In this document: positions 42,486 to 61,153 of the stretch, piece by piece | How the letters are laid out: each line of letters begins with the position of its first letter | How positions within the stretch are numbered: position 1 is the first letter of the stretch | Origin: Verrucomicrobiota bacterium | Lineage (GTDB): Bacteria > Verrucomicrobiota > Verrucomicrobiia > Palsa-1439 | Direction: 5' to 3' | Length of the DNA: 64,000 nt | Assembly: GCA_003152315.1 (NCBI GenBank) | Contig: PLZV01000057.1 | Coordinates: 74,872-138,871, forward strand | Position numbers and translations under genes: made by a program | Notes under the pieces: generated by a model | Databases searched by the model: none | What the model saw: only the letters and a program-made list of their open reading frames with translations | Told to the model about the DNA's origin: nothing

Positions 42486-43376
42486 ATGAACTTCAAGCAA
42501 CTACCCAAGATTGATCTTCATTTGCATCTCGACGGGGCGATCCGGGTGTCGACGATTGCGGAGTTGGGGGATGAATTGGGAGTCAAGGTGCCGACGTACG
42601 GTCCGCGGGAGCTGGCAAAGTTTGTGCAGGTGGACCGCGATTGCCGCAGCTTGACGGACTTCCTCAAGCGCTTTGAAATCTTCTACCCGATTTTGCCCTA
42701 CGCCGTTACACAGGAGCGCATCGCGTACGAGTTATGCGAAGATTGCGCGCGCGACAACGTGATCTACTTCGAGGCGCGGTTTGCGCCGGCGCTGGCGTGC
42801 AGCGGGGAATTCACGATGGAAGATGCGGTTGTCGCCGCGCTCGAAGGACTGCGGCGCGGCCAGCGCGACTTTGGCATCCACTGTGGACTGATTCTCTGCT
42901 GCTACCGGTCCATTACTTTGCAGCAAAACATCGATACAGTGAAGTTGGCAGCGAAATATCGCCATCAGGGCGTCGTCGGCATCGATCTCGCGGGCGACGA
43001 ACTTCGTGATCCGGCTGCCCCACATGCGGAGGCATTTGCGTTGGCGCGCAGGCTGGAGATGCCGATTACCATCCACGCCGGGGAAGGGGGGAAGGCGGAG
43101 AATATACGCGAGGCCGTCTTCGACCACGGTGCGGCCCGCATCGGTCACGGCGTGGCGTTGGAGCGGGACACGGAATTGCTCAAGCAAGTGCGCGATAGGG
43201 GGACAGTGTTTGAGATTTGCCTGACGAGCAATTTGCAGACGTGCAGTGTCCCGTCGCTCTCGAAGCATCCCTTCAAGAAATTCCTCGACGAGAAAGTGCG
43301 TGTGACGCTCAATACGGACGACCCCGCTATCAGTAACATTACGCTCACGGACGAATTTGAGTTGGTCGAGTGCTAA
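42486..43376 (+). CDS. add: Adenosine deaminase, ended early by an in-frame TAA
   Basis: The 296-aa product starts at the ATG at 42486. Zinc and catalytic residues are all present: HLHLDG (HxH), ITIHAGEGG, IGHGVAL and LNTDDPAIS. The enzyme deaminates adenosine to inosine, fitting the nucleoside importer upstream. The frame stops at TAA (43374-43376) after EFELVEC, but codons immediately after it continue the family's C-terminus in the same frame to 43556. Either the protein lacks the last helices, or the stop is a recent mutation or a sequence error. Confidence 0.88.
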   Translation: MNFKQLPKIDLHLHLDGAIRVSTIAELGDELGVKVPTYGPRELAKFVQVDRDCRSLTDFLKRFEIFYPILPYAVTQERIAYELCEDCARDNVIYFEARFAPALACSGEFTMEDAVVAALEGLRRGQRDFGIHCGLILCCYRSITLQQNIDTVKLAAKYRHQGVVGIDLAGDELRDPAAPHAEAFALARRLEMPITIHAGEGGKAENIREAVFDHGAARIGHGVALERDTELLKQVRDRGTVFEICLTSNLQTCSVPSLSKHPFKKFLDEKVRVTLNTDDPAISNITLTDEFELVEC

Positions 43377-43556
43377 TACAATCTGACGCCAGCGCAGATC
43401 CACGAGTTGCTCGTTAACGCGGCCAATGCGGCGTTTGTGGAACCGTCGGTCCATGCCCAGTTCGCCAAGGCATTGGCGGTAAAGTCCTTAAGTGAGTCGG
43501 ATTCCGCGGCGCTTTCGGCAGGAATCCGAGCCGGCAACGTCCCCAAAAAAAGTTAA
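43377..43556 (+). pseudogene. Detached C-terminal end of adenosine deaminase
   Basis: These 59 codons lie in the same frame as add, directly after its TAA: YNLTPAQIHELLVNAANAAF, VEPSVHAQFAKALA, ending PKKS and TAA. They match the terminal helices of adenosine deaminases (x-LxxEEIxxLxxNAxxASFxx). No start codon or ribosome site precedes them, so they are a severed end and not a separate gene. Confidence 0.8.
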
Positions 43557-43564
43557 AAATACTT

Positions 43565-43620
43565 GTTGCAATAGTCTATTGAATTGATAGACTTATATTG
43601 TCTACTAAATTAGTATACAA
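43565..43620 (+). promoter_or_regulatory. Promoter/operator 1 of the proposed Rrf2 regulon
   Basis: GTTGCAAT (43565-43572) is followed by a 21-bp palindrome with arms AGTCTAT/ATAGACT (43573-43593), then TATATT and a second 21-bp palindrome TGTCTACTAA/TTAGTATACA (43599-43619, one mismatch). The two centres are 26 bp apart. The same arrangement occurs before the 67-aa/porin unit and, in a single-palindrome form, before the Rrf2 gene. Confidence 0.7.
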
Positions 43621-43631
43621 ATTAGGTATAG

Positions 43632-43844
43632 GTGCAACAGAGCGCGCAGCGGGCGAAGAACAAAGATGTCCAGTGGCTGGCGTTGGTACGGCAGCAGGTG
43701 GAATCGCTGCAGTGCGGCGTCGTGCAGATTGTGGTGCATGACGCCCGCGTGACGCGAATTGAGCGTACCGAAAAGCTGCGATTGGAGCCGGGGGGCAAGA
43801 TCGCAGCGGCGTCGACCGAGAGCAGCGGAGACGCAGAAGAATAA
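43632..43844 (+). CDS. YezD-like DUF2292 small protein
   Basis: A GTG start (43632) gives 70 aa. The segment [20 protein letters not shown] followed by [17 protein letters not shown] is the DUF2292/YezD core (xxGxVxIxVHDGxVxxIExxEKxRL). YezD-type proteins are recurrently encoded beside sulfate and cysteine genes, which fits the sulfonate transporter in this locus. The molecular role is unknown. It is the first gene after operator 1, and the pseudopilin and STAS genes follow in the same direction. Confidence 0.82.
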
Positions 43845-43903
43845 TAACGAAATGTAAGGCTGACCGGTCCGCCGGAAGTTCCTTTCCAGAGGCGAAAGAG
43901 AGC

Positions 43904-44752
43904 ATGAAGAATCGGAAGACGAAAACTGTAGGAGAGGTAGCGACGGGGATCGGATGCCTTGTATCGGGGCGACGAAACCAGGGGCGGAATGGGGTGGGGG
44001 CGGCCGGCGCGTTTACCCTGATTGAACTGCTGGTGGTCATCGCCATCATTGGAATTCTGGCGGCGATGTTGCTGCCGGCATTGGGCGCGGCCCGCGAGAA
44101 AGCCAAGCAGGCGAGGTGCCTTTCGAACATCCATCAGATCACGCTGGCGTTTGTGAGCTACGCGGATGACCATGATGGACATTTCCCATTTGCCGTGACG
44201 GAACGGGAAGCCACGGACGCAGGGCGATTTGGCGCTATGGCGGACACGGCGGCCGCGCGGGCCCCGTTCTCAGCGCGCGCGCAACTCGAACCGTACATCA
44301 AGAACGTCAATGCCGGCGGGTCCGAGGATCACAATGTATTTCGATGCCCGTCACAAAAGGTGCTATGGCCGACGCCGGGACCCGGGCAGTGGTACACGAC
44401 CGATTACGGCTTCAATCTGAACGAAGGGAAATACTCCAGCGGCTTCGGCCAGTCCGCTTGGTACAAGGCGAACCCGGATTATGGCTTCAATGAGGACTAT
44501 ACGAGCTCGGACCTCGCCAACGCGTCCGAGTTCATTGTTGTGGCCGACGCGGCCCGTGCAGACGGGAACCCGTCGCGAGGCGGGTTGTATCCGATGCAGA
44601 TAATCGCTCCTTCGGTCACGACGCAGGCGCGGATGGACGAGCGCCATAATAGGGGCGCCAACATTGGGTATGCCGATGGTCATGCCGCCTACACGACGTT
44701 CCAAAACACATGGGACGCAAGACAATGGAAGCGCACACCATCACTTCCATGA
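43904..44752 (+). CDS. H-X9-DG pseudopilin (DUF1559-type) in the sulfur-type regulon
   Basis: This 282-aa protein has a type IV prepilin signal after a long 36-residue leader: [20 protein letters not shown], with Ala instead of Gly before the Phe. [20 protein letters not shown] follows, and near the end [16 protein letters not shown] gives the H-X9-DG motif typical of PVC pseudopilins. It should be processed by prepilin peptidase and assembled in a type II-like system. Its stop overlaps the ATG of the STAS gene. Its place behind operator 1 suggests induction under sulfur limitation. Confidence 0.88.
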
Positions 44753-45129
44753 GCCAGCGATTCGAAATCGCGGTGGAAGAAACACGTGGTCTACCCGTCG
44801 TGCGTGTCGCAGGCCGCTTGGAGCAGGAAAGTGTTTCCGCCGTTGAACGTGTTCTGCGCGGCTTGCTGCAGCAGGGGAGGTTTCAGATCGTTCTTGATTG
44901 CAGCCGTTTGACGTACCTCAACAGCGCCGCGGGGCGCGGGTTGTTGCTTTGCCAGCAAGAGGCACGAGACGGAGGCGGCGATTTGAAATGGGCGGGGTTG
45001 CGCGACGACGCCCTGACAATGCTGCTCTTGTTGCAGGGCAAGGGGAGCCTCTGGTCCTTCCAGACCTGTGAAGAAGCCCTGATTGCCTCGACAAAAAAGG
45101 GCGAAAAAAATGTTGCAATAGTCTACTAA
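44749..45129 (+). CDS. STAS-domain protein (anti-sigma-factor antagonist type)
   Basis: The ATG at 44749 overlaps the pseudopilin stop and gives 126 aa ([20 protein letters not shown]). Strands, the loop [19 protein letters not shown] and the conserved Ser (the phospho-site in SpoIIAA-like proteins) are visible. STAS proteins relay stress signals or control transporters. No partner kinase or sulfate transporter is adjacent. The last codons (VAIVY and stop) are encoded by the left half of operator 2. Confidence 0.85.
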
Positions 45130-45167
45130 ATAACTAGACTTATAAAAGTCTATCATATGAGTAGACA
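45112..45167 (+). promoter_or_regulatory. Promoter/operator 2 of the proposed Rrf2 regulon
   Basis: GTTGCAAT (45112-45119) is followed by a palindrome with arms AGTCTA/TAGACT (45120-45140), TATAAA at 45141-45146 and a second, weaker palindrome AGTCTAT...GTAGACA (45147-45167). The layout, including the 22-bp distance between TTGCAA and TATA, is the same as in operator 1. It overlaps the end of the STAS gene. Confidence 0.7.
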
Positions 45168-45184
45168 AAATAGGAGATGCCACC

Positions 45185-45388
45185 ATGACTCGAAAGCGAG
45201 AAGTAATAAGCGAAGTAGAACAACTGCGACAGGTAGAACGGCAGGCGACATCACCGCACCCGGTGACCCGCAGCCGCCGAATTGTGGGGATCGAAAGGGC
45301 GGAACAACGGCTCTTCGTCCCTGTCGCTCCATCTTCCACGTTGCTCGCCGGCGAGGAGAGTTTCATCACGGATTGGGCAGACTCCTAA
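45185..45388 (+). CDS. Small hypothetical protein (67 aa) before the porin gene
   Basis: ATG at 45185 follows AGGAGATGCCACC. The product starts MTRKREVISEVEQLRQVERQ and ends LLAGEESFITDWADS. The composition is charged with no membrane span. It is the first ORF after operator 2 and ends 25 bp before the porin. I do not recognise it; it may be a leader or a small regulator. Confidence 0.5.
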   Translation: MTRKREVISEVEQLRQVERQATSPHPVTRSRRIVGIERAEQRLFVPVAPSSTLLAGEESFITDWADS

Positions 45389-45413
45389 ACCAACCAGACA
45401 ACTGGAGGAAAGC

Positions 45414-46886
45414 ATGAGAAATCGTCAACGAATACTCAGTCTGATTGTAGCGGTCACGATCGCTGTAACGACGGGCACACGCCTGTACGCCGATGATACC
45501 AATGCGGCGCCGGCCAGCACCATGGACCAGAGGATCGATGCGCTGGAGAGGGAGATTCAAGACCTCAAGCGCCAGCGCGAGCTTGACCAGGAGGCGGCCC
45601 AGCAAGCGGCCGAGAAGGCGAAGAGCGCGCCAATAATCACCGCCGGGCAGAATGGCCTGGGGCCGGATGGCTTCAAGCTTCAGTCAGCAGACAGTAACTA
45701 CGTCCTGCGAGTTGGCGGGTATGCGCAGGCGGACGGGCGGTTCTACCTGAATGACAGGGCCAACAACGGAACCGACACCTTTCTCCTGAGGCGTGTCCGT
45801 CCGATTCTTGAAGGCACACTGTACCGGGACTTTGACTTCCGCATCATGACGGACTTCGGGAATGGCGCGCCCCAAACGTCCCTTCTTCAGGATGCCTATG
45901 TTGAGTGGCACCATTGGCAATGGCTGAAGCTCCGAGTCGGAAAATACAAGCCACCGACCGGATTGGAGTGGCTGGAGTCTGACACCGATCTGCTCTTTGT
46001 CGAGCGCGGGTTGCCTACCGACATGGTTCCACAACGCGATGTCGGCGTCCAATTGTCGGGGAGCTTACTGGATGGGGTGGTCACGTATGCCGGCGGGGTA
46101 TTCAACGGAGTGGTCGATGGCGGCATCGGCGATGCGGACACGACGGACTCAAAAGACCTGGCGGCACGGATATTCTTCGTGCCATTCAAGAAGACGGACG
46201 TCAGGTTTCTGCAAGGATTCGGCTTCGGAAGTGGTGGGACGATTGGTCGCGAGGAGGCCAGCAGTACGACCACGAATCTGCCGACTTACAAGACGACCGG
46301 ACAACTGACGTTCTTCTCTTACGGCAAAGGGGTTGCGCCTGATGGCCAGGAACTGCGCTATACGCCGCAGGCCTACTACTACCTGGGGCCGTTTGGCTTG
46401 TTGGCCGAATATAACGTCTCCGACCAGAGCGTTCGCTCCGGAGTGCACACGGCAGACATTGACAACACTGCCTGGCAAGTGGCCGGTGGCTTTTTCCTCA
46501 CGGGCGAGGAACAGCGATACCGTGGCTCGCCTTACTCGCCGTTGGGCGCAGTCACCCCCCGCCACCCGTTTAAGCCGGGGAGTGGCGGATGGGGCGCCTT
46601 TGAATTCGTGGCACGATATGGTGATCTACGCATCGATCCGAATGCCTTTAATAAGAGCCCGGCGTCGTCGGGCTTGCGGTTCGCCAGCCCGATCACGTCC
46701 GCCCAAGAGGCGCGTGAGTGGGGTGTTGGCCTCAATTGGTACCTGAATAGGAACGTCAAGATCTCGCTTGATTACGATAATACGACGTTCGATGGAGGTG
46801 CGGGTACCGCAACCTCGACCGTGTACGATATAAGAAACCGTGGGGCAGAGCAGGATCTCGTTACCCAAGCGCAGTTTCTATTCTAA
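45414..46886 (+). CDS. Phosphate-selective-porin-like (OprO/OprP family) outer-membrane porin
   Basis: This 490-aa protein starts at the ATG at 45414 after GGAGGA. Signal peptide: LSLIVAVTIAVTTGTRLYA. A coiled-coil follows (MDQRIDALEREIQDLKRQRE), then the porin barrel beginning YVLRVGGYAQADGRFYLND and LRRVRPILEGTLYRDFDFRI, ending in Phe. The fold family is OprP, but members carry various anions. Control by operator 2 next to a sulfonate transporter suggests sulfonate or sulfate entry across the outer membrane. Confidence 0.9.
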   Translation: MRNRQRILSLIVAVTIAVTTGTRLYADDTNAAPASTMDQRIDALEREIQDLKRQRELDQEAAQQAAEKAKSAPIITAGQNGLGPDGFKLQSADSNYVLRVGGYAQADGRFYLNDRANNGTDTFLLRRVRPILEGTLYRDFDFRIMTDFGNGAPQTSLLQDAYVEWHHWQWLKLRVGKYKPPTGLEWLESDTDLLFVERGLPTDMVPQRDVGVQLSGSLLDGVVTYAGGVFNGVVDGGIGDADTTDSKDLAARIFFVPFKKTDVRFLQGFGFGSGGTIGREEASSTTTNLPTYKTTGQLTFFSYGKGVAPDGQELRYTPQAYYYLGPFGLLAEYNVSDQSVRSGVHTADIDNTAWQVAGGFFLTGEEQRYRGSPYSPLGAVTPRHPFKPGSGGWGAFEFVARYGDLRIDPNAFNKSPASSGLRFASPITSAQEAREWGVGLNWYLNRNVKISLDYDNTTFDGGAGTATSTVYDIRNRGAEQDLVTQAQFLF

Positions 46887-46910
46887 ATGCGGCAGCCTCA
46901 GGAAAAGAAG

Positions 46911-46939
46911 GTTGCAATTCTCTAGTTAACGCATAGAGT
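46911..46939 (+). promoter_or_regulatory. Promoter/operator 3, upstream of the Rrf2 gene
   Basis: GTTGCAAT (46911-46918) followed by a 21-bp near-palindrome with CTCTA/TAGAG arms, ten bases before the Rrf2 start codon. It shares the GTTGCAAT box and arm core with operators 1 and 2, as expected for autoregulation. Confidence 0.6.
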
Positions 46940-46948
46940 TTGGTTGCC

Positions 46949-47425
46949 ATGCGGGTTTCCAAACGAGGCGAGTATGCCCTGCGGTCGCTGATCAATCTCG
47001 GTATAGCCCGGGAATTGGGACGGCCGATGCTGCAGATCCGTCAATTGGCCGAGAAAGAAAATATCCCGGTCAAATTCCTCGAAGCCATTTTGCTCGAGTT
47101 GAATCGCGCGGGTTATTTGGGCAGCAAACGCGGTAAGGGCGGGGGGTATTTCCTCAAGAAGCCGATGAACAAGATTACCATTGGCGAGATTGTTCGGCTG
47201 ATCGACGGACCGCTGGCGCCGATCTCCTGTGCGAGTGTGACCGCGTACCATCCGTGTTCCTGTCCCGATGAAGCCCATTGCGGACTGCGCCTGTTGATGG
47301 TGGATGTGCGCAACGCCATTGCCAACATTCTGGATCGGTACACGTTGGCCGACACCGTCGAGGTGACCCTGCGCAAGATGCGGCGAGATAAAGTGCCATT
47401 GCCATTCCTGGAAACGAAGAAATGA
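46949..47425 (+). CDS. Rrf2-family transcriptional regulator
   Basis: The ATG at 46949 gives 158 aa (MRVSKRGEYALRSLINLGIA). The winged helix (IRQLAEKENIPVKFLEAILL, GYLGSKRGKGGGYFLKKP) is of Rrf2/IscR type. Cysteines 94, 103, 105 and 111 lie in the cluster-loop region, as in IscR-like proteins that bind an Fe-S cluster, although the spacing differs. The gene overlaps ssuA by 4 bp and lies behind operator 3. CymR, a family member, controls sulfur metabolism, which fits this locus. Confidence 0.93.
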   Translation: MRVSKRGEYALRSLINLGIARELGRPMLQIRQLAEKENIPVKFLEAILLELNRAGYLGSKRGKGGGYFLKKPMNKITIGEIVRLIDGPLAPISCASVTAYHPCSCPDEAHCGLRLLMVDVRNAIANILDRYTLADTVEVTLRKMRRDKVPLPFLETKK

Positions 47426-48456
47426 AATCATTGAGACCGTTATTGTTCGTTTTGCTTGCGCTGGGCATGGGCGCCGCCTGTCGCGCGGAGAAAATCGTCC
47501 TGCGTGTCGGCCATTTCCCGAACGTGACACACGCGCAGGCCGTGATCGCCCACGGGTTGAGCCGCACGGGGAAGGGATGGTTTGAGGAGCGACTTGGGCC
47601 GGACGTGGAAGTGCAGTGGTTCGTTTACAACGCCGGGCCGAGCGCGATGGAGGCGGTTTTCGCGCGCTCGATCGATCTGACATACGTTGGCCCAAATCCC
47701 GCCATCAATGCGCACCTGAAATCACAGGGCGAGGAAATCCGTATTGTCGCGGGCGCCTGCAGTGGCGGCGCGGCGCTGGTGGTACAACCCGATGGCCGCA
47801 TCAAAACGGACGCGGATTTCAAGGGCAAGAAGGTCGCCACGCCGCAATTTGGCAACACCCAGGACGTGGCGGCCCGAGCGTGGCTGCAGTCAAAGGGACT
47901 GCGCATCACGATGACAGGCGGAGACGCCTTTGTCGTCCCGACCGCGAATCCCGACCAGCTTTCACTTTTTCAGAGAGGCGAGATGGACGCCGTGTGGACT
48001 GTCGAGCCGTGGGTGAGCCGGCTGGAGTTGGAGGCCAAAGGGAAGGTTTACCTCGAGGAGAGTTCGTTGTGGAAGGATACCAATGGGAAGTACGTCACGA
48101 CGCATCTCGTGAGCAGCGTAAAGTTCCTCAAGGAACGCCCCGACCTGCTGAAGAAATGGATCGCCGCACATGTTGAGTTGACGAAATGGATCAACGACCA
48201 TCCCGACGAAGCCAAGCGAATTCTCAACGAAGAAATGAAGGCTGAGACCACCAGGGCACTGCCGCAAGCAACCTTGGACGGCGCGTGGAAGCGTTTGGAG
48301 ATCACCTATGACCCGGTCAGTGCCTCGCTGCTAAAATCCGCCGAGGACGCGTACCGCATTGGATTCCTGAAGGAGCACCCGGACCTGTCGCGCATTTATG
48401 ATCTCAAGCTCCTCAATGAGGTCCTGCGTGAAAAGGGATTGGCCGAAGTTAAATGA
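47422..48456 (+). CDS. ssuA: SsuA/TauA-type ABC transporter substrate-binding protein
   Basis: This 344-aa exported protein (signal to ACRA, about residue 22) has the nitrate/sulfonate/taurine-binding fold: VLRVGHFPNVTHAQAVIAHG, VQWFVYNAGPSAMEAVFARS, YVGPNPAINAHL, GKKVATPQFGNTQDVAARAW and MDAVWTVEPWVSRLE. It binds an oxyanion such as an alkanesulfonate. It starts inside the Rrf2 stop. The ligand is inferred from family and context; nitrate or thiamine-precursor binding is less likely. Confidence 0.88.
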   Translation: MKSLRPLLFVLLALGMGAACRAEKIVLRVGHFPNVTHAQAVIAHGLSRTGKGWFEERLGPDVEVQWFVYNAGPSAMEAVFARSIDLTYVGPNPAINAHLKSQGEEIRIVAGACSGGAALVVQPDGRIKTDADFKGKKVATPQFGNTQDVAARAWLQSKGLRITMTGGDAFVVPTANPDQLSLFQRGEMDAVWTVEPWVSRLELEAKGKVYLEESSLWKDTNGKYVTTHLVSSVKFLKERPDLLKKWIAAHVELTKWINDHPDEAKRILNEEMKAETTRALPQATLDGAWKRLEITYDPVSASLLKSAEDAYRIGFLKEHPDLSRIYDLKLLNEVLREKGLAEVK

Positions 48457-49268
48457 TGGCGGTCCACGAAGAACTGCAAAACGTTCCACCCGAAAAGCTG
48501 GTGGTGGAAGGCGTGTCGAAATGGTTTCGGACGCGTCGCGCCGCGGTGCACGCGCTCGACAACGTCTCCTTGACCATCCACGAAGGCGAGTTCGTCTGCC
48601 TGGTCGGTCCCTCGGGCTGCGGCAAATCGACGCTCCTCAATATCATCGCGGGCCTGGAAATACCTGACAGCGGGCAGGTGCTGGCCGACGGAAAGCCCGT
48701 TCTGGGTCCGGGACGCGAACGAATGATGATGTTCCAGGAGTCGGCCCTCTTCCCGTGGCTGGACGTCATGGATAACGTATTGTTTGGCCTGAAACTAAAG
48801 CCGAACTTGAAGAGGAAAGAGCGCCGTGAAGTCGCGAAGTATTATCTCCACCTCGTTGGCCTGGAGAAGTTCATGGCCGCCAGTATCCACGAATTGTCGG
48901 GTGGCATGAAGCAGCGCGTCGCGCTGGCGCGCGCGCTGGCGCCGAACCCGCGGGTACTGCTCATGGATGAACCGTTCGCCGCCCTGGACGCGCTCACACG
49001 CGAACAACTGTACGGCGACATCCAGCGCATCTGGCAGGAACGCAAAAAGACCATCGTGTTCGTCACGCATAACGTCCGCGAAGCGGCCTGCCTCGGCAAC
49101 CGCGTCGTGTTATTCTCGCCACATCCTGGTCGCATTCAAGAGAAGTTTCAGATCGATTTACCGCGTCCACGTGACATCAACAGCGTCGATCTCGCGAAAT
49201 ACTCGAGCGAGATCATGAGTGCGCTCAAGCGCCACCTGAATTCGGAACTGGCCGAGGTGGCGGGATGA
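48453..49268 (+). CDS. ssuB: SsuB/TauB-type ABC transporter ATP-binding protein
   Basis: This 271-aa protein has Walker A GPSGCGKST, signature LSGGMKQR and Walker B VLLMDEPFAALD, and the MMMFQESALFPWLDV Q-loop region of this subfamily. It overlaps ssuA and ssuC by 4 bp each, so the importer is a single transcript. Confidence 0.93.
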   Translation: MMAVHEELQNVPPEKLVVEGVSKWFRTRRAAVHALDNVSLTIHEGEFVCLVGPSGCGKSTLLNIIAGLEIPDSGQVLADGKPVLGPGRERMMMFQESALFPWLDVMDNVLFGLKLKPNLKRKERREVAKYYLHLVGLEKFMAASIHELSGGMKQRVALARALAPNPRVLLMDEPFAALDALTREQLYGDIQRIWQERKKTIVFVTHNVREAACLGNRVVLFSPHPGRIQEKFQIDLPRPRDINSVDLAKYSSEIMSALKRHLNSELAEVAG

Positions 49269-50032
49269 GGCGCACCCTGGTAGTCATTGCCTTCTTCGTG
49301 CTGCTCCTTGGGATGTGGGAAGCCCTCGTGCGGACGAAGATCTGGTCACCGGTGTTGGTACCGTCGCCCCTGAGTGTGGCGAGGTACATCAAGGACGGCC
49401 TTCAGAGTGGCGACCTCGAGCACGCGTCCTTCGTGACAATGCGGCGGCTGCTAATCGGTTACGTGCTGGGGTTGGTGTTCGGTTTGCCGTTGGGGTTGCT
49501 GACGGCGCGATTCAAATCCTGCGAGGACACGCTCGGCGTCATTGCGCTCGGATTACAGACTCTCCCCAGTGTGTGTTGGGTGCCGCTGGCGTTGTTGTGG
49601 TTCGGGCAAACGGAGGCGGCGATGCTCTTTGTCGTGGTCATGGGGACGTTGTGGTCGGTTGTGATCGCCACGGACAACGGCGTGCGCACCGTCCCGCCGA
49701 TTTTTGCGCGCGCGGCACGCACCATGGGGTCGAAGCAGTTACATACGTGGATCAAGGTGATCGTACCCGCCTCACTGCCGTTCATCGTCAGCGGCATGAA
49801 ACAGGGCTGGGCATTTGCGTGGCGTTCGCTGATGGCGGCGGAGATTTACGTGACGATTCTCAGTGGATTCGGGCTCGGGTCCCTGCTGAATTACGGACGC
49901 GAACTGCAGGCCATGGATCAAGTCATCGGCATTATGTTGATCATCATCGTCATCGGTTTGCTTGCCGACAAGATTCTCTTCTCACCCTGGGAACGCTTTC
50001 TCTATCGCCGCTGGGGAACGGCAAAGAACTAA
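49265..50032 (+). CDS. ssuC: SsuC/TauC-type ABC transporter permease
   Basis: This 255-aa membrane protein has about six spans and the coupling-loop motif ARAARTMGSKQLHTWIKVIV before PASLPFIVSGMKQGWAFAWR. GYVLGLVFGLPLGLLTARFK and LPSVCWVPLALLWFG are typical of the SsuC/TauC family. It ends the operon that begins with the Rrf2 gene. Confidence 0.93.
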   Translation: MRRTLVVIAFFVLLLGMWEALVRTKIWSPVLVPSPLSVARYIKDGLQSGDLEHASFVTMRRLLIGYVLGLVFGLPLGLLTARFKSCEDTLGVIALGLQTLPSVCWVPLALLWFGQTEAAMLFVVVMGTLWSVVIATDNGVRTVPPIFARAARTMGSKQLHTWIKVIVPASLPFIVSGMKQGWAFAWRSLMAAEIYVTILSGFGLGSLLNYGRELQAMDQVIGIMLIIIVIGLLADKILFSPWERFLYRRWGTAKN

Positions 50033-50221: not shown

Positions 50222-53200
50222 ATGCAGGCGGGAAACAATATCGGATTGGGGACAGCGTCGGAACTCACCGATCCGAAAACGATCCGGTACATCAACCTGA
50301 AGTTGGCGCTGCTGGGCTTTCCAGCAGTGGCGGCGAGTTCCGACCCGGAGTTCGATGAGTTGACGGCGGCGTTGCTGCAGCGCCAGCACGAGACCGATCG
50401 GCTGCTGGCCGACTATCTTTGCCCTGCGGACCAGCGGATCCAGGTTTTTCTGAATGATTATCTCAAGGAGACCGGCCCGGCAATCAAATTGCCGGGACGG
50501 ACGTTTGTGCTGGATCGATATGGCCTGGCCCGCGTGCTTTCCCTGCCACCGGATCGTGACGAATTCATCTCAGAACACGTGCGGTCTTATCGTGTCAAGC
50601 AAGGTGTTCTGCACAATCCGCAGTCCGACCGCCGCACGACGCAGGGGATTTTTCACATCGCGGAGGGCGGGTTGGGCATTCCAGACGACAAACGCAGTGT
50701 GCCGAAAGGCGTATTTGGCCGGCTGCTGCAACTGGCGTTGGTGCCACCGCCGGAGTTGTTGCGACTTCCGTTTACGGCGTCGTCGGAACCAGTGGAGTGT
50801 TTCGTCTCGCTTCTGTTGCGGCCGTTGGTTGTTCCCGAGGTTCCCGGGTACATCGCGGAGAAAACGATGGAGATCCGTTTCTTCGCGCCGGGGAATCTGG
50901 TGAGCAACCTCGACTTCGTGGAAAGTATCTTTGGCAACGGGGGCGACCCTTTCCTGCCCGAATATGACGCGAGTCTGGACGTGGAACACTGGATGGGTCA
51001 CACCGGTTGTGTGATTCTCGCGCCGCATCTGGTCAAGATTACCAAGAAAGAAGCGGGCCTGCCGCATTGGGACGTGGCCACCGAACGGCAGCGCCGCGAC
51101 AGCATGTGCTGGCGCACCGAGACGGAGCGCTACAACGACGGTCTGGCGTTCAAGCTCACCTGTCGTGACACGCGGGGAGTGATGGTCACCATCATTGCCG
51201 ACAATTACTTCGGATATTGCAAGAAGGAGGTCAAAACCCAGATCAGTTACTCGGCCAATTTGTTTGGGCTGTGCGAGGAGGAACACGCGGGTGGGGCCCT
51301 GGTTTATCCCTGCTACGATCTGGGTGAGGAGTTTAGCGGTGATCTCCACGCGCCACGGCTCGACTATAAATTTGAGGAAATGATCTCCCTTTTTGGCGAA
51401 CTGCTGGACGTGAAACCCGAAGGTTATGCGGTCGATAAGAAGTTTCCCGACATACTGTATGTGCCGGAAGATGTACATTTTGACCTGCTGCGCCAGACGG
51501 TGAGTTGGTCCCGCAACAACGGTACGCAGAGGATCAAACTGCTTCCCGGGAAGACATACGTTCGCCCGTCGGGTTACAAGGTCCAGATGGAAAAACCGCC
51601 CGGTGGCCGTTCGTGGGGACTCGTGGGCACCGGAGCGGAGCCGACCCTTTGCCACAAGCCCTGCACGGTTTCCGGCGGAGGGAAGTCGGAAATCTCCAAA
51701 CCGATCTCCGATGCCATTATCCAGGGGCCCGTATTCATCGCCGACTTCAAGCGCGAGTTCGATTTCGCTAACAAGCTGATCAAACGCAATTACGCCGACC
51801 GCTTTCGCGGCGAGACAAAACCCAAGAAGGACAGCCGCCCCATTCTCAGTTCCGAACGCTCACTTGGGTCCGTGGTCAAATTGCTCACGCCCTCGGATGA
51901 GTACACCGCCGAGTACAATGAGTGGCTGGCCTCCATCCCGCAATACATCAAGGAATTGGTCTTCGTCGTGAAGCGCTACTACAAGCCGGAGATGGGGGAT
52001 GGCTGGCGCGAGCACTTTAGTGTGGACATCATCGACGGTAAGCCCGGCAACGAGCTGAAGTTTGACAACCGCAAACTGGTGGCCAATTACCTACGCGTCG
52101 GGTTTGACTACGACGGCTCGTGGCGCACGTTTGGGCTGCGGAAAGATTTTCATCCAGCCGCCAAATTGCAGGCGGAAGACGATATCACCGCCTCGGTGGT
52201 GGTGCCGACCAGGTATTTGTCGGGTTTGGATCCGCAGTACCGTCAGCCGTCGGTGAAGTTCGTCCAGAACTGCGAATACCGACTGTTCCAGAGGCCCGAC
52301 GACGCCGTTCACCGCGGTTATGACAAGCAAACCGAAGCGGATTTCTCCAAGCCGGGGAATTTCTTCTCCAACTACGAACCCATCACCGTTGCGCAAGGAC
52401 GTGAATTGATCGAGGACGCCATCGGCTTCGACAAATTCACCGGACCGATGCAACGATTGATCCGCGAATTCGTGGCGAGCGGCAAGCCGTCATACGTTGT
52501 CTCCTCGGCGCATCCGAGGCTGGTGAACGGCAAGCCCTCGAAGAATCCACGTTATCTGCAAATCCGGCCCGACCTGCTGGATGCCCGCGCCGTTTATCTC
52601 GCGGAAATGAGCACGCGCCTGCGTCGCCGCATTCCTCCGGGTCAGCCGCTTTTCACGCCCGTGAACGCCGTCCTGCCCGGTCGCCGCAACAATCCACCAG
52701 AGACCAATTCACAGCTTCGTTCGCTGGCGATGTTCAACCCGATTCATTACCTGGAACTACCCGAGTTGTTCATGGGATTCATCTGTAGCATGACCGGCAA
52801 ATCGCCGTCCACCACGGGTGCTGGCTCCGAAGGAGCGCTGACGAAGGGGCCATTCAACGCGCTTCCCCCCATCATCGATCTGAACAACGCGTTGGTTTCG
52901 CTGCTGCTGACAGGGGACCACGTTTTTATCACGGCCGCCGGGTATGTTGGTCCGCACGTCCGTGTCGATCACGATGTCAGCCTGCTGGTCCCGGAAATCT
53001 GGAGCCGCATGAGCGTGGAAGAGCGCAACCCGCAGTTTCTGATTGAGCATGGCTACCTTGAGCAATGCCGGGACTTCGAGCACAACGGCCAGCGGGTGCT
53101 CGCCAGCCGTCTGGGTTATCGCATCACGAAGCGATTCGTCCTCAGTTTCTTTGGACGCGTATTCCATCATCCGCATTCGGTCTTTACCGAGAAGATGCTT

Positions 53201-53665
53201 CGTCCCGAGACACAGGATTACGACATCTTCGCAGACGGCATGGAGAACATGATTGAAGCCCACGAACGCATCGCCCGGAGTTATTTCGACGATGGCAGCA
53301 TTCAGGAGGCTTGTTCGCCGCTGAGGGCCCTGCTGCATATTATGGCGCACGGGCAGTACGAGGGGAAGGACCTCAACCACCCGGAGTTCCGCGCCTTGTT
53401 TACCCGCGAGAACATGCTGGCCGGCGGCTGGTACGGCGAACGTCTCGCCGCCAAACAGATCTTCGACATCCATCTGTGGGAGCAAAACGTCCACCGTCTG
53501 GAAGAGTTGCTGGGAAAATCGAGTTACGCCGGTGAAGCAAAACGACTGGGCATCCGTGAGCGCTTGGAGATGGCCCGCAGCCAACTGCAACGGGTACAAG
53601 CTCCTGACTATCTGGGCTTTTTGCATGGTTCGAGTGGTGCACACCCTTGGAAACCTGTCGTGTAA
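50222..53665 (+). CDS. PPi-type phosphoenolpyruvate carboxykinase
   Basis: This 1147-aa protein begins after GGAGGA. It matches the long PPi-PEPCKs of Propionibacterium and Entamoeba (about 1140 aa): RYINLKLALLGFP near the N-terminus, GVLHNPQSDRRTTQGIFHIA, VTIIADNYFGYCKKEVKTQI, the loop VSGGGKSEISKPISDA (about 490) and TGKSPSTTGAGSEGALTKG (about 857). It interconverts PEP, CO2 and phosphate with oxaloacetate and pyrophosphate. It is unrelated in length to ATP-PEPCK and lies alone between the sulfonate operon and the Nfn-like pair. Confidence 0.93.
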   Translation: MQAGNNIGLGTASELTDPKTIRYINLKLALLGFPAVAASSDPEFDELTAALLQRQHETDRLLADYLCPADQRIQVFLNDYLKETGPAIKLPGRTFVLDRYGLARVLSLPPDRDEFISEHVRSYRVKQGVLHNPQSDRRTTQGIFHIAEGGLGIPDDKRSVPKGVFGRLLQLALVPPPELLRLPFTASSEPVECFVSLLLRPLVVPEVPGYIAEKTMEIRFFAPGNLVSNLDFVESIFGNGGDPFLPEYDASLDVEHWMGHTGCVILAPHLVKITKKEAGLPHWDVATERQRRDSMCWRTETERYNDGLAFKLTCRDTRGVMVTIIADNYFGYCKKEVKTQISYSANLFGLCEEEHAGGALVYPCYDLGEEFSGDLHAPRLDYKFEEMISLFGELLDVKPEGYAVDKKFPDILYVPEDVHFDLLRQTVSWSRNNGTQRIKLLPGKTYVRPSGYKVQMEKPPGGRSWGLVGTGAEPTLCHKPCTVSGGGKSEISKPISDAIIQGPVFIADFKREFDFANKLIKRNYADRFRGETKPKKDSRPILSSERSLGSVVKLLTPSDEYTAEYNEWLASIPQYIKELVFVVKRYYKPEMGDGWREHFSVDIIDGKPGNELKFDNRKLVANYLRVGFDYDGSWRTFGLRKDFHPAAKLQAEDDITASVVVPTRYLSGLDPQYRQPSVKFVQNCEYRLFQRPDDAVHRGYDKQTEADFSKPGNFFSNYEPITVAQGRELIEDAIGFDKFTGPMQRLIREFVASGKPSYVVSSAHPRLVNGKPSKNPRYLQIRPDLLDARAVYLAEMSTRLRRRIPPGQPLFTPVNAVLPGRRNNPPETNSQLRSLAMFNPIHYLELPELFMGFICSMTGKSPSTTGAGSEGALTKGPFNALPPIIDLNNALVSLLLTGDHVFITAAGYVGPHVRVDHDVSLLVPEIWSRMSVEERNPQFLIEHGYLEQCRDFEHNGQRVLASRLGYRITKRFVLSFFGRVFHHPHSVFTEKMLRPETQDYDIFADGMENMIEAHERIARSYFDDGSIQEACSPLRALLHIMAHGQYEGKDLNHPEFRALFTRENMLAGGWYGERLAAKQIFDIHLWEQNVHRLEELLGKSSYAGEAKRLGIRERLEMARSQLQRVQAPDYLGFLHGSSGAHPWKPVV

Positions 53666-59272: not shown

Positions 59273-61153
59273 CTATGGAACGAGTCGGACCCGGTAGTAA
59301 CGACCGGGGCCGTTGGTGGCCCCTTCGCTGTCGAGATAATTGGTGATGGCGTCGCCGCTGCCCGGGATGATGATGAACGGGCTCAGGTCGACAAAGTTGG
59401 TTGTGTACGAGCCGTCCACGTCCCCACCACTTACCTGCACCACATTGGTCCTTCCGCCGGCGGTGGCCCACGTGACCAGGATATTGGCGCTCTGGGGGGT
59501 CACGGCGATGATGTGGAAGAACGAGGCGCTGTTGGTCGGGTCGGTGCCCGAGAGAAATTCGCAGAGATTATTGCAGCCATCGCCATCGGGATCGGCGTTT
59601 TGTACCGCAGCCGGGTTGGTGGTGCTGCCGAAGTACTGAACCTGCCAGCTTTGGAATGCTGTGAGGGCAGTAATGTAATTGAGCTGCGAATTGGTGCTGA
59701 CACCGCCGGGACCGGTAACGACCAACGTGACGCCATACGTGCCGGCGGCATAGGTGTGGGCCACGATGTTGGTTGTGACGTTAGTCGTAGTCGTGTCACC
59801 GAAATCCCAGGACCGATTGGTGATGGTGCCCGTCGAGGTGTCGCTGAAGGTCACCAATAATGGTTCTGTCCCACTGGTCGGACTAACGTTGAAACTGGCG
59901 GACGGTGGTGGTGGTCCCGCGCTGCTGACCACGATGTAGCCCGACTTGGTGTTGGTGGCGGAGCCGCCAAGACCGCTCACAATCAGCCTCACGGTGTTGG
60001 TGCCGGCCGCGTTGTAGGTATATTGCACGCTGGTCGCCGTGGTATTGCTGGTGCCCCCGTTCCCGAAAGTCCACGCCCGATTGCTAATCGAGCCGGCGGA
60101 GCCGTCGGTGAACGTCACGGTCAACGGCGCCGTGCCGTTGGTCGGGGCGCCGCTGAAAATGGCCGTCGGTGGCACATTCGGCCCGACATTCGTGAGGCCC
60201 AGGGTGATCCATTCCACGGGCTGGGTGATTGTCACGCTCGAGCTGGCGCCCAGCGATGCGACCACATTGGAGATTCCCAGCATATCGACGCGGTTCAATA
60301 AGTTCACCGTAACCGTTTGATTCGATCCCAAAGCTGTGGCGACGGTATAGGCGACGGTATTGGTGATGAGGCGGCAGCGCATCACGCGCGCGCCCGAGAT
60401 CGCACCGGCCGGAGAGTTGGTGGGATGAAATGTAATGTATGAGCTGGTGGAATCGCTCGTGAGCGTCTGCACCACTTGGCCGTCAAATTGGCCATAGTTG
60501 GCGGTATCGACCCCTGCGGAGGTGGGATAGGTAATCACCACGCGGTTGTTGTCGGACAGGACCGTGACCGTGACTTGCTGATTGGCGCCCGACGCCATGT
60601 CCTGGTATGTGCTGAGGGCGTACCCCGTCCCGTAGGTGTCCGGCCGGATGGTATTATGGTAATTGTTGGCAACGACAAATGCGGTTCCATTCCAGGTGTC
60701 CTGCTCCGTCATAGGGTGGATCTCATACTTAATCTCGCCCGCGTGCTCGTGGTAGTAGCGAAAGATGCCGCGTGACTTGGCGTGAGTGATGCTATTTGGC
60801 AAAAGGCTTCCCGCGGCATTGATGATTTCGGCAACAATCTCTGAGTCGCCGTTGTTGAGATTGTTGCAATTCGCGCCGAGGCCACTGGCATTCAGCGCCA
60901 TGTTGATGTGTTCGTCGCCATCAGACGCTGTGGAGCCGCTCGGCTGCATATACTCCCAGCTGCCAGTGGTGGAACACGAAGGCTGTGCATCGAGGATGAG
61001 CTGCGCATTGGCGAGCGGCGAAATCTGGACGCTGTCGACCTCCCAGTAACCGGCCATCTGGGCGATTTCCGGCCGGGTGTTAGTGATGGTGGTTGCGCGA
61101 GCGACTTGCGCGCAACACAACAGGACAACAATGGCATAAATGCGTCTCGGCAT
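59273..61153 (-). CDS. Exported PKD-domain protein with verrucomicrobial C-terminal module
   Basis: The ATG at 61153 gives 626 aa with a signal peptide (IYAIVVLLCCAQVARA). The first 320 residues are of unknown fold and are Cys-containing. Two PKD domains follow (PTAIFSGAPTNGTAPLTVTF; PSASFNVSPTSGTEPLLVTF), then a calcium-type loop DPDGDGCNNLCEFLSGTDP and a C-terminal module TWATAGGRTNVVQVSGGD... ending YYRVRLVP. That module recurs as a relic at 61868. Probably a secreted or surface protein; the ligand is unknown. Confidence 0.88.
   Translation of the reverse strand: MPRRIYAIVVLLCCAQVARATTITNTRPEIAQMAGYWEVDSVQISPLANAQLILDAQPSCSTTGSWEYMQPSGSTASDGDEHINMALNASGLGANCNNLNNGDSEIVAEIINAAGSLLPNSITHAKSRGIFRYYHEHAGEIKYEIHPMTEQDTWNGTAFVVANNYHNTIRPDTYGTGYALSTYQDMASGANQQVTVTVLSDNNRVVITYPTSAGVDTANYGQFDGQVVQTLTSDSTSSYITFHPTNSPAGAISGARVMRCRLITNTVAYTVATALGSNQTVTVNLLNRVDMLGISNVVASLGASSSVTITQPVEWITLGLTNVGPNVPPTAIFSGAPTNGTAPLTVTFTDGSAGSISNRAWTFGNGGTSNTTATSVQYTYNAAGTNTVRLIVSGLGGSATNTKSGYIVVSSAGPPPPSASFNVSPTSGTEPLLVTFSDTSTGTITNRSWDFGDTTTTNVTTNIVAHTYAAGTYGVTLVVTGPGGVSTNSQLNYITALTAFQSWQVQYFGSTTNPAAVQNADPDGDGCNNLCEFLSGTDPTNSASFFHIIAVTPQSANILVTWATAGGRTNVVQVSGGDVDGSYTTNFVDLSPFIIIPGSGDAITNYLDSEGATNGPGRYYRVRLVP

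Follow-up and report, generated by a model that had tools for sequence, protein, structure and literature searches.

We describe a locus in a Verrucomicrobiota genome (GenBank assembly GCA_003152315.1, contig PLZV01000057.1) in which one type of operator precedes genes for a DUF2292 protein and a pseudopilin, for an outer-membrane porin, and for an Rrf2 regulator followed by a sulfonate-type importer. It lies at 43565-50032 on the plus strand of a stretch of 64,000 nucleotides, here called the window. The elements follow each other in the order operator, DUF2292, pseudopilin, STAS-domain protein, operator, an open reading frame (ORF) of 67 amino acids (aa), Porin_O_P porin, operator, Rrf2, SsuA-family protein, ATPase and permease. 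We propose, with a probability of roughly 0.7, that this is an autoregulated sulfur-starvation regulon under a repressor of the iron-sulfur (Fe-S) type of Rrf2 proteins. It would comprise four units, three of which are in the window. In the open-licence literature searched we found no description of a combined Rrf2-DUF2292-porin-importer-pseudopilin regulon, nor of a regulator, operator and gene set for sulfur control in Verrucomicrobiota. The operator and the gene linkage point to a surface component of the bacterial response to sulfur shortage.

A composite operator in the window and in the genome

The 8-mer GTTGCAAT is present at 43565, 45112 and 46911, each time directly followed by a 21-bp palindrome with TCTA/TAGA arms, exactly as a first-pass annotation of the window had stated. 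It occurs once more at 60863. Taken singly, neither part is significant (4 matches against 2.6 expected for the 8-mer, and 10 against 9.0 for a loose palindrome with up to two mismatches). Exact matches of the composite 28-mer TTGCAATWSTCTA-N9-TAGAST number three in the whole 4.89-Mb genome, and each of them is in this locus. With up to three mismatches six genome matches were obtained, i.e. the three window sites, a site on contig C49 and two others, compared to none for a reversed-pattern control. A chance origin of the composite site was ruled out by this genome count.

Operator 1 (43565-43619) consists of TTGCAA (43566-43571), an AGTCTA-N9-TAGACT palindrome (43573-43593, with TAGACT at 43588-43593) and, 26 bp on, a second palindrome with one arm mismatch (43599-43619). 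Operator 2 (45112-45167) is built alike, with TTGCAA, AGTCTA-N9-TAGACT (45120-45140) and a second palindrome 27 bp on (45147-45167). The second palindromes had been announced at a distance of about 26 bp, and the 22-bp spacing from TTGCAA to TATA, said to be common to these two sites, was found as well. Operator 3 (46911-46939) carries TTGCAA and a weaker palindrome (46919-46939), lacks a second palindrome and stands, as claimed, before the Rrf2 gene, which starts at 46949.

From TTGCAA to TAGA(C/G)T the distance is 16 bp at all three sites. This pair appears to read better as -35 and -10 boxes than does TTGCAA with TATA. With this 16-bp gap, a plausible promoter would have its spacer and -10 box filled by the first palindrome, a normal position for a repressor. 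A consensus promoter scan called none of the three operator sites as a promoter, and the transcription starts assigned to them earlier are deduced from sequence.

An exact GTCTA-N9-TAGAC palindrome was found at four places in the assembly, three in the window and one on contig C49. The latter has the tandem layout of the window, and immediately downstream of it is the one further DUF2292 gene that the genome contains. There, DUF2292 is followed by a 304-aa protein of outer-membrane type (DUF3034, a label taken from the Pfam match of its homologue in stretch L094) and by cysK. Since the C49 site was located without reference to any gene, the DUF2292 gene downstream of it is a prediction that came true.

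Operators 1 and 2 are parts of a 52-bp direct repeat (43546-43597 and 45093-45144; 77% identical, 1547 bp apart) which flanks the DUF2292-pilin-STAS cassette. Gain or loss of the cassette may have gone through this repeat. Might the likeness of the promoters then be due to copying, i.e. to a recent duplication and insertion of the cassette together with its promoter, and not to selection for shared control? The repeat itself would fit, as would a genome of the same genus, G002, with a single operator region and no cassette between the deaminase and porin genes. However, the C49 site, the rrf2 site and the porin sites of G002 and its congener G001 are alike in box and layout with little likeness in their flanks. 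Further, the palindrome arms are complementary in each site although the 9-bp middles vary. We consider a recent duplication very improbable as the source of the shared operator.

Conservation of the box

We compared 57 genomes, 11 of them of the same family as the window genome. Seven family members, window genome counted, have an rrf2 orthologue with 74% identity or more. Just before rrf2, five of these seven (G000, G001, G002, G006, G010) carry a box with no more than one mismatch; G007 and G008 have weaker forms, and TTGCAA is preserved in five of the seven. At the porin promoter, tandem boxes are present in G002 and, less well kept, in G001, and in G007 a box starts about 48 bp ahead of the porin ORF. 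In G001 cysK is located directly upstream of rrf2. A search with up to three mismatches also flagged sites before DUF2292 in G001 and G004, at a threshold at which unrelated matches occur.

In the class as a whole, we counted 21-bp palindromes whose core is CTA or CGA in the regions that precede DUF2292, rrf2, porin or pilin genes. There were 17 distinct palindromes in 276 regions compared to one in 552 control regions (Fisher 7e-8); the controls were upstream regions of long unlabelled ORFs, a part of them spurious and not intergenic. With the window genome left out the figures were 15 of 271 against one of 510 (1e-6). The core had been picked after the sites were seen, hence all 64 cores were compared: CTA ranked first (11 regions vs 0) and CGA second (7 vs 1). 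In G381 the rrf2 gene and the pilin-DUF2292 genes diverge from each other, with a window-type ACTCTA-N9-TAGAGT between them, and in G179 window-type boxes stand before DUF2292 and before the porin gene. Family f6 uses a changed box, TAACGAC-N7-GTCGTTA. A search for the boxes upstream of orthologues, which had been suggested as a check, thus bore out the rrf2 and porin promoters of relatives; most examined loci of the class show no box at the setting used.

Ahead of their DUF2292 operons, L247:3530-3590, L246:1880-1940 and L262:1800-1870 have a AATCTACATCAAACAGGTTGACTCAATAGAGATTC stretch in common, which is not palindromic. Perhaps it is a diverged Rrf2 operator.

The DUF2292 neighbourhood

DUF2292 is present in 126 of 385 sampled genomes of the class. 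We examined 112 DUF2292 loci (100 stretches from the list of 126 genomes plus 12 others; L103 was left out as it has no DUF2292 ORF). Within 5 kb of DUF2292 we found rrf2 in 71 loci, a porin in 54, a permease in 52, an AstE/AspA-like hydrolase in 49, an ATP-binding cassette (ABC) ATPase in 41, cysK in 29 and SsuA in 10. With the ATPase disregarded, 96 loci had one or more members of the set within this distance. A common order is Rrf2-DUF2292-porin-sulfate-binding protein-hydrolase-permease-permease-ATPase. In four loci (L159, L196, L198, L212) SsuA-ATPase-SsuC takes the place of the sulfate-binding importer.

The DUF2292 protein of the window (43632-43844, 70 aa, GTG start) is YezD/OscA-like and matched PF10055 with 44.8 bits (cut-off 22). 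Pseudomonas OscA, as described in PMC3596284, is a member of this small family which takes part in the sulfur-starvation response and is encoded beside a sulfate-binding protein gene. OscA is thus the precedent for a link between DUF2292 and sulfur. In contrast to OscA, the window protein scored 32 bits with the OscA model NF033785, below the cut-off of 85, and DUF2292 stands here under an Rrf2-type box together with porin, pilin or DUF3034 genes. The new element of the proposed regulon is the pseudopilin.

Two side observations concern this neighbourhood. In G015 a single frame (L102:9191-10384) joins DUF2292 (residues 21-56) with a sulfate-type binding protein (residues 94-347), apparently as a fusion. 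The AstE/AspA (M14-like) hydrolase recurs in sulfur operons, e.g. at L102:11516-12340, L247:5912-6778 and L094:6950-7765, which suggests a step in which organosulfur or amino-acyl compounds would be hydrolysed.

The regulator

The Rrf2 regulator of the window, the proposed repressor, is encoded at 46949-47425 (PF02082, 121 bits). CymR of Bacillus and Staphylococcus is an Rrf2 regulator of cysteine metabolism. Like CymR, the window protein is encoded beside sulfur-uptake genes, and its nearest solved structures include those of CymR. CymR is also its best equivalog model (NF047409), with 74.9 bits against a cut-off of 195. Unlike CymR, it has a conserved cysteine cluster, C-x8-C-x-C-x5-C, and operator and gene set differ. 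Its cysteines C94, C103, C105 and C111 are invariant in six family members, and at this place the solved CymR chains aligned with gaps or did not align.

Three conserved cysteines in the dimer/effector region are the mark of Fe-S regulators, and the window protein has them. As in IscR, NsrR and RirA, the cysteine triad follows the winged helix, as expected of cluster ligands. It differs from these proteins in spacing (C-x8-C, one to two extra cysteine positions, x5-C), scores far below their cut-offs and sits with sulfur import, not with Fe-S assembly or nitric oxide genes. The pattern C-x8-C...C is present in 80 of 80 Rrf2 proteins of the clade and absent from the three other Rrf2 proteins of the genome. 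Therefore, the regulator is probably an Fe-S sensor rather than a CymR. As such it might couple sulfur control to the Fe-S status of the cell.

The window Rrf2 is predicted to bind the 21-bp palindromes, of which conservation and position were examined. Could they be read by another regulator, the window Rrf2 being one target among others of a shared sulfur regulon? Binding by the window Rrf2 is a prediction, the genome encodes three further Rrf2 proteins, and loci of the L247 type have rrf2 without such a palindrome. On the other hand, the three further proteins lack the cysteine pattern of the clade, in many lineages rrf2 adjoins the boxes or lies between them, and in f6, where the box has changed, a related palindrome also precedes rrf2. 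We regard control by another regulator as unlikely.

A pseudopilin subfamily linked to sulfur genes

The pseudopilin (43904-44752, 282 aa; PF07963 24.4 bits, cut-off 21.2; PF07596 30.1 bits, cut-off 23.3) belongs to a subfamily which we term PILIN-S. Like the DUF1559/H-X9-DG pseudopilins of planctomycetes and verrucomicrobia, it has a prepilin motif, a DUF1559 match and a C-terminal H-x9-DG. Unlike these, PILIN-S is a narrow subfamily with conserved blocks of its own (VTER, TDYG, GFNE, SRGG, RH, DGH), contains less cysteine and methionine and is linked to sulfur import. In 387 sampled genomes of the phylum, the C-terminal part of the window pseudopilin has a single strong relative, in G015 (58% identity), and a single weak one, in G561 (33%); the latter has no gene of the sulfur set within 1.5 kb. 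A profile search of the 385 class genomes detected the pseudopilin in five, in each case within 1.3 kb of DUF2292, four of the five having been part of the profile.

A scan of named genomes with two peptide patterns, which does not give a full count, yielded 29 pilin loci. They come from Verrucomicrobiota, from five Armatimonadota and from one bin labelled Actinomycetota. Genes of the sulfur set (sulfate-binding protein, SsuA/SsuC, permease, DUF2292, hydrolase, cysK, porin, rrf2) lay within 1.5 kb in 25 of the 29 loci compared to none of 30 loci of ordinary DUF1559 pseudopilins, drawn from four genomes (Fisher 8e-13), the control stretches being slightly shorter than most pilin stretches. Four loci (L235, L236, L237, L241) correspond to sampled genomes (G081, G015, G275, G381); if they are left out, there is linkage in 21 of 25. 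The unlinked loci are L249, L252, L259 and L256, in the last of which the pilin is at a contig edge. The gene orders vary: SsuA-DUF2292-pilin-SsuC-ATPase (L242), DUF2292-SBP-SBP-hydrolase-pilin (L247; SBP, binding protein) or a pilin divergent from a sulfate ABC cluster (L263). Consequently, the linkage of pilin and sulfur genes is not one inherited block.

Is the pseudopilin, together with the STAS protein, a passenger, i.e. an ordinary pilin of the cell surface or of secretion which ended up in the operon and has no role in sulfur physiology? G001 and G002, of the same genus, are without the pilin, ordinary pilins are also located near DUF2292 in L182 and L217, and the STAS protein has no counterpart. 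Yet the association of the subfamily with sulfur genes in varied orders and phyla, the lack of it in the ordinary pilins sampled, and the proximity of the nearest relatives to DUF2292 in the class argue against a passenger. We consider it rather unlikely.

The mature pseudopilin contains two cysteines and few methionines. Cysteine plus methionine amount to 1.96 percent in the subfamily and to 3.85 percent in ordinary pilins, in a comparison which treats kin as independent. Within-genome ranks were used instead for this reason. In four of four genomes the subfamily pilin was the poorest in cysteine plus methionine among the sampled pilins. It was ranked against 8, 7, 10 and 7 generic pilins, a sample confined to the 30 control loci and thus smaller than the full pilin complement of the four genomes.

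We see about even odds that PILIN-S is a dedicated sulfur-starvation pseudopilin which occurs in at least two phyla, is low in cysteine and methionine and is induced along with importers of sulfate or sulfonate, in the window under an Fe-S Rrf2. It would either be swapped into a secretion or pilus apparatus and spare sulfur, or capture sulfur compounds at the surface through a conserved site. A specific site would be favoured by its numerous invariant polar residues and sparing by the low cysteine plus methionine content; the two are compatible. Low-sulfur replacement proteins are an idea from cyanobacteria. If the pilin is a sulfur-sparing isoform, this idea would be extended to pilus-like proteins.

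DUF1559-type pseudopilins exist in many copies in these bacteria, mostly without assigned roles, and the nutritional context of PILIN-S is a concrete entry point. The source genome has 21 matches of this type; for a cultured verrucomicrobium PMC13274419 gives 67 homologues of one pseudopilin. As to secretion parts, the genome has one prepilin peptidase gene and 12 matches above cut-off to T2SSE-type ATPases, as in most genomes. Two structure predictions of the pilin were of low confidence (mean pLDDT 46 and 55), and Foldseek yielded no match at E <=0.001.

The proposed regulon

Several findings weigh against the regulon as proposed here. At the setting used, the box was found in 14 of 125 loci and in none of the other 111; therefore, much of the class must have an altered box or none. 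When palindromes before DUF2292 and rrf2 were counted irrespective of sequence, no clear peak emerged at a width of 21, and the signal needs the CTA/CGA core. The pilin operons of the L247 type show no such palindrome. G002 has rrf2 and operators and is without a DUF2292 or pilin match; G006, G007 and G008 likewise have rrf2 without a DUF2292 match, two of these assemblies being 80-85% complete. Sixteen of the 112 DUF2292 loci had no further member of the set within 5 kb. The margins in cysteine plus methionine were small in three of the genomes (2.44 vs 2.53, 2.03 vs 2.18 and 2.10 vs 2.15 percent), and the substrate of the importer is backed no further than the subfamily level.

The regulon may operate as follows; Rrf2 binding, direction of control, effector, substrates, role of the pilin and its trans-envelope mechanism, if any, are parts of this prediction. 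With plentiful sulfur, Rrf2 dimers would occupy the 21-bp palindromes, which take up the -35/-10 spacer together with the -10 box, and exclude RNA polymerase. At the strong promoters, dimers would also occupy the second palindrome, over the presumed start. A drop in the supply of cysteine or Fe-S would release Rrf2. Four units would then be expressed: DUF2292-pseudopilin(-STAS), the porin, rrf2-ssuABC and, on C49, DUF2292-DUF3034-cysK. The porin would let organosulfur anions pass across the outer membrane, SsuABC would import them, and CysK would make cysteine. DUF2292 might be an OscA-like helper. The low-sulfur pseudopilin subfamily might replace or supplement ordinary pseudopilins under starvation.

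Importer, porin and remaining genes

Downstream of rrf2 the window encodes an SsuA-family substrate-binding protein (47422-48456; TIGR01728, 199.5 bits, cut-off 163.5), an ABC transporter ATPase of the sulfonate/taurine/nitrate type (48453-49268; PF00005) and an ABC transporter permease of the SsuC/TauC type (49265-50032; PF00528). From rrf2 on, neighbouring genes of this run overlap by 4 bases each, thus rrf2-ssuABC is probably one unit. At the family level the make-up is that of SsuABC, with a TIGR01728 binding protein adjoining an ATPase and a permease. For both ATPase and permease, all equivalog models shown scored below their cut-offs (SsuB 204.7 vs 395, SsuC 86.8 vs 347).

The porin (45414-46886, 490 aa) matched PF07396 with 114 bits (cut-off 20.9). 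Its neighbours argue for sulfur anions as its substrate rather than phosphate as in OprP.

The STAS-domain protein (44710-45129, 139 aa from its first start; PF13466, 41.8 bits) overlaps operator 2 with its 3' end. No homologue was found in 148 other stretches; the G002 stretch L088 has none. The 67-aa ORF (45185-45388) is a doubtful gene without a family match and equally without a homologue in the 148 stretches. Both are probably passengers outside the regulon. The first-pass annotation had placed YezD, pseudopilin, STAS, porin, Rrf2 and importer under one operator. This is supported for DUF2292-pseudopilin, porin, rrf2 and the sulfonate-type importer by the boxes in the family, the C49 site with cysK, the neighbourhood in the class and the pilin-sulfur linkage; for the STAS protein the comparison gave no support.

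Two genes border the locus. Upstream, an adenosine-deaminase-type gene (42492-43376) stops earlier than its G002 homologue, at a TAA (43374-43376) beyond which the frame is still homologous. Just past ssuC an ORF of 1147 aa (50222-53665) matches nothing in Pfam or PHROGs and has a homologue at the equivalent place in G002 (L088:3023-6466).

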